DNA of 64,000 bases. Origin: Spirosoma foliorum. GTDB lineage: Bacteria; Bacteroidota; Bacteroidia; Cytophagales; Spirosomataceae. A program made the position numbers and the translations under genes. Position 1 is the first letter of the stretch, and the number at the start of each line of letters is the position of its first letter. The notes beneath the pieces were generated by a model that was given only the letters and a program-made list of their open reading frames with translations, did not search any database and had not been told where the DNA came from. Shown here one piece after another: positions 1,830 to 39,025 of the stretch. The stretch lies in NCBI RefSeq assembly GCF_014117325.1, contig NZ_CP059732.1:5531001-5595000 (forward strand). The letters run 5' to 3'.

Positions 1830-3185
1830 CTAGAAACTACCCTCTAATACAGTACGAATGGCACGTGCTTTTAACAGGCACTCTTCCCATTCCTGCTTTG
1901 GGTCGGCGTCGTACGTAATGGCGCTTCCAACGGAAAATGAAGCGTACTGACGTTGGGCATTATAGAGTAGCGTTCGAATAACCACGCTAAAATCAAAATC
2001 GCCATCAGGCGTGATGAAGCCTACGGTCCCCGAGTATACCCCTCTTCTACTGACCTCCAGTTCATCAATCAGCTCCATAGCCCGGATTTTTGGAGCACCT
2101 GTCATGCTGCCCATTGGAAAGGCATTCTGAATTGCATCGGCCCAGGAAACATCCTCTCGCAACGTGGCCGATACGGTTGAAATCATCTGATAAACTTGCT
2201 GAAAGCCGTAAATACCAAACAGCTCATTTATCTGCACCGAGCCGGTTTGGGCACTTCGGGCAAGGTCATTCCGTACCAGATCGACAATCATCAGGTTTTC
2301 GGCTCGCTCCTTTTCGGAGTTCAGGAGCTGCGCCCGAAGCATCGAATCCTCTTCGGGTGTTGCTCCCCGGCGGATGGTTCCTTTAATCGGTTGCGACAGT
2401 ATAGTATTACCTTCTTTTTTCAGAAACCGCTCCGGCGATGCACCTATTATATATTGATCACCAATTTTCAAAAAACTTGAAAACGGCATTGGCGACCGCT
2501 CATTCAGAGCCATGTAGGTGTCCAGCGGCTCCAGATCAATGTTTTCCGCAAAGAACTCAATGCAGTAACTCAACTCATATACGTCGCCCGCCAGAATGTG
2601 TTGCTGAATCCGCCGAACGTTGGCTAGATATTCTTGGTGGGAGACACGGCATTGGACGCGTTTACCCTCACCCCCGGCCCCTCTCCCATTTTGGGAGAGG
2701 GTAGCAAGGCTTGCCGTTTCCCCCCCCTCTCCCAAAATGGGAGAGGGGCCGGGGGTGAGGGTAATCATACGGGCAACAGCTTCCAAATCCCCCTCGCCCC
2801 GAATCACTACGCTATCCTTTTCAAAATCAATAATCCACTCGGGCTCTACAAAATAAGCATCAGGCAATTCCAGTCGATTGGGGTTACGGCTGCTTAATGC
2901 TTCAAGTTGATTTTTGAGATCGTAGCCCAGATAGCCCACTAAAAAGGAAGGCCGTTCGCGATGGGCAGCAGCCAACTCCTGAATGGTCGCCAAATCCGAA
3001 AACGGAATGACCCGTTTCTGACCGACAAACAGTCGGTTTGGAAACGGGTCATTGGGGTAAGCAATGTTATTATTATTCAAAAATGCAACAAAGCCGCCTT
3101 CATGTGCCTGCTGGCTCATAGCCCACGTCAACGCCTGCCACTGAATTGACAGCGTATCGGTAGCAGATACATGCAGCACATTCAT
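1830..3185 (-). CDS. pabB: Aminodeoxychorismate synthase component I with in-frame palindromic insertion
   Basis: The 451-residue protein has the chorismate-binding fold: GASPERFL, then SQPIKGT near residue 265, ERAENLMIVDLVRNDLAR, GSMTGAPKIRAMELID and GVYSGTVGFI. The Lys in PIKGT is the PabB signature; anthranilate synthase TrpE has Ala there, so this is assigned to 4-amino-4-deoxychorismate synthesis for folate. The glutamine amidotransferase partner PabA and the lyase PabC are not in the window. Residues about 141-175 (LTPGPSPILGEG...RGAGGEG) are encoded by a palindromic DNA element and do not resemble the family; they sit in the linker just before the conserved QEYLANVRRIQQHI segment. The reading frame stays open through it. 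The gene starts 3 bp after the stop of the NYN gene, so both are probably co-transcribed. Confidence 0.9.
   Translation of the reverse strand: MNVLHVSATDTLSIQWQALTWAMSQQAHEGGFVAFLNNNNIAYPNDPFPNRLFVGQKRVIPFSDLATIQELAAAHRERPSFLVGYLGYDLKNQLEALSSRNPNRLELPDAYFVEPEWIIDFEKDSVVIRGEGDLEAVARMITLTPGPSPILGEGGETASLATLSQNGRGAGGEGKRVQCRVSHQEYLANVRRIQQHILAGDVYELSYCIEFFAENIDLEPLDTYMALNERSPMPFSSFLKIGDQYIIGASPERFLKKEGNTILSQPIKGTIRRGATPEEDSMLRAQLLNSEKERAENLMIVDLVRNDLARSAQTGSVQINELFGIYGFQQVYQMISTVSATLREDVSWADAIQNAFPMGSMTGAPKIRAMELIDELEVSRRGVYSGTVGFITPDGDFDFSVVIRTLLYNAQRQYASFSVGSAITYDADPKQEWEECLLKARAIRTVLEGSF
2662..2764. repeat. Palindromic element inserted in frame within pabB
   Basis: Two perfect 40-bp inverted arms (2662-2701 and 2725-2764) flank a 23-bp loop. 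Each arm holds a smaller palindrome (CTCTCCCA / TGGGAGAG), so the structure is nested. It encodes Pro/Gly/Ser-rich peptides in several frames of both strands without stops (TPGPSPILGEG is one of them), which explains how it can sit inside a gene. Similar GGAGAGGGGCCGGGGGTGAGG-type sequences are known to be widely scattered in some bacterial genomes; that comparison is from memory, not a search. Confidence 0.9.
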
Positions 3186-38494: not shown

Positions 38495-39025
38495 TCAGTA
38501 AGGACTTAAATGCAAAGTAGTATCTGGATTTGCACTACTGTAAATATAATTCTGTGGCTCGTTGACCAAGCCTGCTTTTACTGGATTTTGATGAATATAA
38601 TCAATTTTCTCATCGATCCAGCGATTCGATTCTAAGCCGATAGGATGATTACCATGTTGCCACACCTGAAATTCGGAGTTACTGACTCTGGGCTTGGCAA
38701 AGTACCGAAATAAATACAGTAGCCAATCTCGACGACTCTCTTCAGGATGATCCTGAATCAACTGCACTAATTGTTTCGCGGTATAACTCTTAAAGTCACG
38801 CATAATCGGCCCCACTTCACCTGATTCAGCGTCACAAATCATGTGGATATGGCTTGGCATTATACAAAACGCATAGATTCGCAGCCCCTTTCGAGTGATA
38901 CATATATTCAGATTTCGGACAATTTCGTCGCAATATTCTTTCCGGGTAAACACATCAATCCAGCCAACAATAGTAAGCGTTACAAAGAACAGACCGTCTT
39001 TGTAGAACCTGTATTTCTCTGACAT
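38495..39025 (-). mobile_element. REP-associated tyrosine transposase (RAYT, Y1/HUH family)
   Basis: The 176-residue protein has the HUH pair in MPSHIHMICD, and the RAYT hallmark DYIHQNPVKAGLV with the nucleophilic Tyr. RAYTs are single-copy relatives of the IS200/IS605 transposase thought to have spread REP palindromes; they do not move as ordinary insertion sequences. Here palindromic repeats lie at both sides (38354-38478 and 39040-39342), consistent with this role. The frame is intact, so it may be active. Confidence 0.92.

Follow-up and report, generated by a model that had tools for sequence, protein, structure and literature searches.

The pabB gene of Spirosoma foliorum contains a long, perfect inverted repeat that leaves the reading frame open. 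This raises the questions of what the repeat is, how old it is at this site, and what placed it in the gene of a conserved enzyme. The window referred to below is the whole stretch of DNA that was analysed, 64,000 nucleotides of contig NZ_CP059732.1 (positions 5,531,001 to 5,595,000), and coordinates are those of the window.

An inverted pair of triplex motifs in pabB

A repeat search of the window located two perfect 40-bp inverted arms at 2662-2701 and 2725-2764, 100% complementary and with 23 nt between them. By sequence, both arms correspond to single units of the G/C-rich intrastrand triplex motif (TM), which Holder et al. (2015, PMC4666352) described in Escherichia coli as TMECO; an older name is PIT, and that paper draws a comparison with BoxC. 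The features are as follows.

1830..3185, minus strand: pabB, the host gene, aminodeoxychorismate synthase component I (451 aa), identified by ORF, Pfam and PDB relatives
2662..2764, no strand assigned: TM inverted dimer, in frame in pabB at about residues 141-175, identified by repeat search; open in 4/6 frames; lacking in 28/29 aligned relatives
2662..2701, minus strand: first 40-bp arm, holding one TM unit (2665-2701) with the minus strand as its G-rich strand; identical to the second arm as reverse complement
2702..2724, no strand assigned: 23-bp spacer separating the arms, from the repeat search
2725..2764, plus strand: second 40-bp arm, holding a TM unit (2725-2761); 31/34 aligned bases are those of TMECO no. 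1 (PMC4666352, Table 1)

The repeat search and the ORF agree with the first-pass annotation, which had described a 103-bp element with two 40-bp arms inside an open pabB, and we regard an in-frame TM dimer inside pabB as being as good as certain. Its statement that the element reads open in several frames of both strands was borne out as well, with two open frames per strand. A 23-base core of the arm occurred twice in the window, compared to a mean of 0.00 in 100 shuffles. The element strand folds at -97.5 kcal/mol (z = -12.1; 0/200 shuffles equal or better), and its GC content is 0.64 compared to 0.49 in the remaining pabB. An Rfam scan of the element gave 28 weak matches, all under the gathering score and mostly to microRNA hairpin models, as such models would fit a long hairpin.

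In the protein, the insert lies between the Anth_synt_I_N (PF04715) and Chorismate_bind (PF00425, residues 183-439) domains, which places the extra residues in a linker, as had been claimed. Relatives of PabB in the PDB are 3h9m and 1k0e. An AlphaFold2 model built with 28 sequences has the insert as a coil between helices 134-143 and 183-198, with mean pLDDT of 43 (residues 151-160) and 37 (161-170). The model is of moderate quality (mean pLDDT 73.5), and these low values are not specific to the insert because stretches of the conserved domain (265-275, 290-342 and 359-365) also score under 50. The insert is probably translated as a flexible Pro/Gly/Ser-rich segment.

The unit at 2725-2761 reads stem CCCTCTCCC, loop, stem GGGAGAGGG, loop and third strand GGGGTGAGGG. 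It shares 28-31 of 34-36 aligned bases with the six TMECO sequences compared, out of 23 listed. A blastn search of E. coli matched 42% of the element at E 0.03 (best ten rows), and a coverage of at least 80% was reached in no genome. PMC4666352 counts 23 TMECO in E. coli K-12, five inverted pairs among them and every copy intergenic, and gives TM as present in more than 260 genomes. It reports triplex formation in vitro, not confirmed in vivo, and no transposase or integrase remnants and no mobile gene around the E. coli copies; the means of spread is left open. The intergenic setting does not hold for pabB and other copies found here within genes. We take this as a different setting and not a different motif, because the sequence defines the motif. 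No in-gene TM was seen in the literature searched.

The arm was also sought genome-wide, as the first-pass annotation had proposed. In the S. foliorum genome (G000) the core pattern matches 32 times, compared to 0 for a reversed control. TM copies other than the one in pabB lie partly inside genes and partly in intergenic DNA. TM was found in 20 of 36 genomes of the genus, S. foliorum included, and was lacking in 16. Counts were highest in G003 (84), G018 (59), G011 (35) and G000 (32), with at most 10 in each of the others. Beyond the genus, an exact 21-mer was present in at least 117 stretches of named genomes from many phyla; Bacteroidota, Chloroflexota, Planctomycetota, Proteobacteria, Acidobacteriota, Armatimonadota, Cyanobacteria and others are among the matches listed. 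Within the first 80 of these at least 117 loci, a matching stem followed the core in 77 of 84 readable matches, and an inverted partner lay within 170 bp in 22 of the 84. The same 21-mer was found in 98 stretches of viral contigs.

Some further features of the units were observed. A second short block, GACCCGTCGGACCG, recurs with variants in TM units, located between hairpin and third strand. It is present in one arm at two G018 loci (L252:1490-1530 and L238:1495-1530), in both arms in G003 pabB, and at L075 and L080; a related stretch lies in the PabB linker of G002. Across 73 dimers, the positions 3 and 4 bases beyond the core on the outer side show an excess of T (108 and 91 of 146), possibly a target preference. 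In G011 a related insert peptide, TPPQPLPVREG...GRGWGGV, has numerous additional occurrences among the matches listed, and may represent a second family of repeats in that genome.

DUF559 nuclease genes between inverted motifs

To see what accompanies TM, ORFs from cross-phylum loci were scanned with Pfam, and in three of the ten scanned a DUF559 gene lay directly beside TM. A profile made from these three detected 18 DUF559 copies in 589 loci examined, 16 of them within 206 bp of a TM. DUF559 was present in 11 of 117 genome loci selected by TM, the other loci having none. Ten of the 11 genes were within 250 bp of TM, compared to 2.8 expected from random placement in the same loci, and eight of the 11 had TM on both sides in inverted orientation. 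Since the first profile had been seeded from TM-adjacent copies, an independent profile was built from 18 DUF559 sequences chosen without TM, none of which had TM in the expected place. It recovered the same 11 genes, with 10 near TM (2.6 expected) and 8/11 flanked on both sides. TM units thus form the inverted ends of roughly 500-bp units that carry a gene for a DUF559 (Vsr-like) nuclease. One locus among the viral-contig stretches with the exact 21-mer also had DUF559.

Complete TM-DUF559-TM units are present in the genus in G002 (L689), G003 (L170) and twice in G018 (L238 and L252), with similar inner flanks. One G018 unit (G018a) and the G002 unit are at a shared locus, and the remaining loci differ. 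The spacing rule was tested on a G002 TM pair 508 bp apart, which had DUF559 inside (E 2.7e-46); by the same test, a 1,054-bp TM pair in G018 had none. In a Cytophagales MAG, leucyl-tRNA synthetase contains a whole TM-DUF559-TM unit in frame, with 167 residues at a point where its best solved relative has six. The ycjD gene of E. coli K-12, a DUF559 gene, is about 180 bp from TM at the place of TMECO 9, and none was detected on the opposite side. PMC1189080 counts YcjD-like proteins among the PD-(D/E)XK nucleases related to Vsr. The DUF559 columns E, D, E-x-D-G, H, D and R were invariant in 23 sequences, residues of the nuclease type, and the PDB entry 3hrl, 'Endonuclease-Like Protein', matches DUF559. 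No DUF559 was detected in the 64-kb window or in the S. foliorum loci examined, and the spacers of 32 mid-length dimers held no convincing remnant of it (best E 0.03). We found no literature linking DUF559 with TM or palindromic repeats, the DUF559 literature being judged mostly by titles.

The association was also examined in reverse, at DUF559 loci chosen without TM. For plasmids, 49 records with matches provided 17 loci. TM was within 300 bp in the expected orientation in 6/17, on both sides in four, and in distant windows (any TM) in 2/17. A reversed-pattern control matched at 5/17 on the left and 3/17 on the right, because TM is nearly mirror-symmetric. A looser TM pattern allowing 4 mismatches was dropped at these loci in favour of the stricter one, as the reversed control matched it about as often. 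For viral contigs, an alignment search provided 80 DUF559 loci, compared to 1 by single-sequence search; TM was present in 6/80, on both sides in three, and in distant windows in 3/80. Most DUF559 genes chosen without TM are not flanked by TM, and only part of the family is TM-linked. Three lone DUF559 genes on plasmids (L682, L683 and L684) interrupt the paa, suf and transhydrogenase clusters at points between genes, a position in keeping with a mobile gene, and have no TM in the expected place.

Relatives (G002, G003 and G018) carry a long form that shares these ends, and the TM/DUF559 element is probably mobile. We consider it rather probable that the pabB element, an inverted TM pair that entered the gene in an ancestor common to G000 and G003, is a TM-DUF559-TM mobile element in its short form, without the gene. 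A wider proposal, for which the arguments seem to us evenly balanced, is that DUF559 (Vsr-like PD-(D/E)XK) nucleases drive a new class of very small mobile element whose ends are the widespread bacterial TM (PIT, box C) repeats. Gene-less TM dimers, with a core open in two frames per strand, would then be its MITE-like offspring, and would repeatedly have extended conserved enzymes of several phyla by a peptide segment. The spread of TM is unexplained in the paper that described it, and a nuclease partner, if true, would make this question directly testable.

The alternative with the greatest weight is that TM is not moved by an enzyme of its own. It would arise and spread by hairpin replication accidents, template switching and recombination, and DUF559 would be a separate mobile gene that prefers TM pairs. 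This would account for the many TM copies and single units that have no gene at all, for the presence of DUF559 at so few TM-selected loci, for the DUF559 genes picked otherwise, most of which are without TM, and for the lack of transposase or integrase remnants near TM in E. coli reported in PMC4666352. However, the DUF559 genes of G002, G003 and (twice) G018, enclosed by inverted TM that have similar inner flanks, show the anatomy usual for the ends of an element, and the exact core recurs across phyla. We therefore regard an origin of TM without its own enzyme as unlikely, while giving it more weight than the alternatives below.

A dimer moved as a REPIN-like element by a RAYT/Y1 transposase appears improbable. 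Size, inverted-pair layout and hairpins are as in REPINs, and the S. foliorum genome has 10 Y1_Tnp matches. However, with Y1_Tnp sought in 8 of the 36 genus genomes, none of 33 match loci in six genomes had TM within 1.5 kb, and TM therefore does not flank the transposase gene as REPs do. The 10 loci of G009 and G027 are uninformative because neither genome has a TM match, and 23 loci are in four TM-bearing genomes. Tags were rare within 8 nt before and after 229 TM units (GTAG in 8 and 3, CGTC in 1 and 3). In the absence of a regular tag and of nearby TM, a RAYT/REPIN origin was set aside. The window itself has a Y1_Tnp (PF01797) match at 38693-38929 (E 8.6e-6), with no TM within 1.5 kb.

Copies within genes and the history of single sites

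In four genomes 152 distinct TM sites were collected. Of these, 28 fall inside ORFs that span 150 aa or more and extend at least 30 aa to either side of the site, some of these ORFs not being real genes. Among 14 inverted dimers judged by reading to be within genuine genes, 13 keep the frame, with no stops; this tally is biased toward in-frame copies because the selection began from open frames. A counter-search of the other 124 sites for out-of-frame halves of at least 110 codons gave one case, which reads as two neighbouring genes. Pfam domains were detected in all 12 host genes scanned (2 + 10), and hosts include ClpB, an alpha-amylase-family glucosidase, a GT9 transferase and adenine deaminase. 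The ClpB insertion is a single TM unit and no dimer. A PDB relative of the glucosidase (GH13) runs straight past the insertion point, and HemF of Chitinimonas taiwanensis has a single TM unit where the PDB relative continues without a break. The annotated CDS of a methyltransferase on a cyanobacterial plasmid covers a TM match. A plasmid match labelled pglZ (H4) was rejected, as it overlaps the gene by only 5 bp and is mostly intergenic. The in-frame TM copies show one way in which conserved enzymes gain new segments of protein.

The exception in frame bears on a further alternative, that the segment is removed or skipped in expression by RNA processing or ribosome bypass and that PabB is made without it. 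A methylmalonyl-CoA-mutase-like gene of G011 (L112/L430) has two TM dimers, and the second breaks the frame; the downstream half is in another frame, yet open and conserved, which together with the very stable hairpin of the element would suit skipping. The G018 copy (L107/L109) has TM at both places with the same shift; its frame is also broken at one or more points lying away from TM, so that it may be decayed or mis-sequenced. For this gene, dN/dS between the two genomes is about 0.06 on one stretch and 0.04 on another. Other species also have recurring TM-like or low-complexity inserts in its linker. Against skipping, 13/14 in-gene dimers keep the frame without stops, which skipping does not require, although their choice started from open frames, and the element has no Rfam match above the gathering score. 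We consider skipping highly improbable.

PabB or a relative was found in 36/36 genus genomes, and 30 of the 36 loci were aligned, S. foliorum and 29 relatives. The element is absent from 28 of the 29, and a comparable insert is present only in G003, at the same junctions. The alignment thus provided the insertion-free version that the first-pass annotation had proposed to look for, and its refuting case, orthologues that all carry the segment, was not found. G000 and G003 are sisters in the PabB tree (support 98/95), at 82% protein identity. The shared junctions indicate that the insertion is older than the split between G000 and G003. In G003 pabB, both arms have the same extra block and match each other at 59 of 67 bases rather than matching the G000 arms, and arms altered alike indicate that they have been homogenised. 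The insertion had been called either recent or kept alike by homogenised arms; the second part is favoured by the G003 arms, and the first is opposed by an insertion that predates the split. A conserved PabB domain, or an artefact of sequencing, is next to inconceivable as an explanation of the segment: G003 carries it too, but 28/29 aligned relatives lack it, the TM unit recurs at unrelated loci, and the insert is modelled as coil, a weak point as parts of the conserved domain also model poorly.

Homogenisation was also examined across 73 dimers, in which the two arms of one element had a mean similarity score of 28.5, compared to 25.3 with arms of other elements of the same genome group (0/2000 permutations), a signal of which subfamilies moving as units could give part. 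Several stages are visible in a loop of a TrmN6-like gene, aligned at 30 loci. G000 has the element, G003 a short scar and 25 loci a short loop. G022 has a decayed copy with a CATCCCC change in both arms, G034 has a dimer in another frame whose palindrome reaches about 10 bp into host sequence, and G019 has a longer loop of unclear origin. In the glucosidase, one dimer site is common to G011 and G034, with nine other aligned relatives lacking it. A single site in related species thus displays insertion, parallel arm change, decay and scar. At the DNA level neither a target duplication nor a clean empty site could be made out; at pabB, a duplication is not resolvable because the insertion-free linkers differ in length and sequence.

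Proposed course of events and comparison with known systems

In the course of events that we favour, an inverted TM pair would have entered the interdomain linker of pabB, in frame, in the ancestor of G000 and G003, and PabB would since have included the flexible segment. The long form would consist of TM, a DUF559 nuclease gene and TM, and the short form of the same ends without the gene; the nuclease would move the repeats in trans. Insertions may be tolerated because the core offers two open frames on each strand and its landing sites are loops and linkers. Hairpin-templated copying would keep both arms alike.

The TM described in E. coli and the TM found here have in common the three blocks CCCTCTCCC, GGGAGAGGG and GGGTGAGGG, a similar unit length and inverted pairs. 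In contrast to the E. coli copies, always intergenic and tied to no mobile gene, some pairs here are in frame in conserved genes, and some units flank DUF559, unlike in the description given in PMC4666352.

In-frame palindromic repeats are a known phenomenon, comprising RPE and REPs (PMC3733652). As described in that text, RPE are palindromic repeats in frame within genes likely to be functional. The element in pabB resembles them in being an in-frame palindromic insertion in genes, and differs in its host group; the likeness, drawn from the description of RPE, is one of behaviour. The parallel with Rickettsia elements made in the first-pass annotation accordingly stands for behaviour, while the element itself belongs to the cross-phylum TM motif. 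The GTAG/CGTC REPs and RAYT-linked REP dimers of the same text share with TM the short hairpin units, the inverted dimers and the location of some copies within genes. In contrast, TM has no regular GTAG/CGTC tag and, in the loci examined, no Y1 transposase nearby. MITEs are similar in that a short inverted-repeat form exists beside a longer, gene-bearing unit. They differ in that the partner of TM would be a PD-(D/E)XK/Vsr-like DUF559 nuclease rather than a known transposase, with no target duplication resolved.
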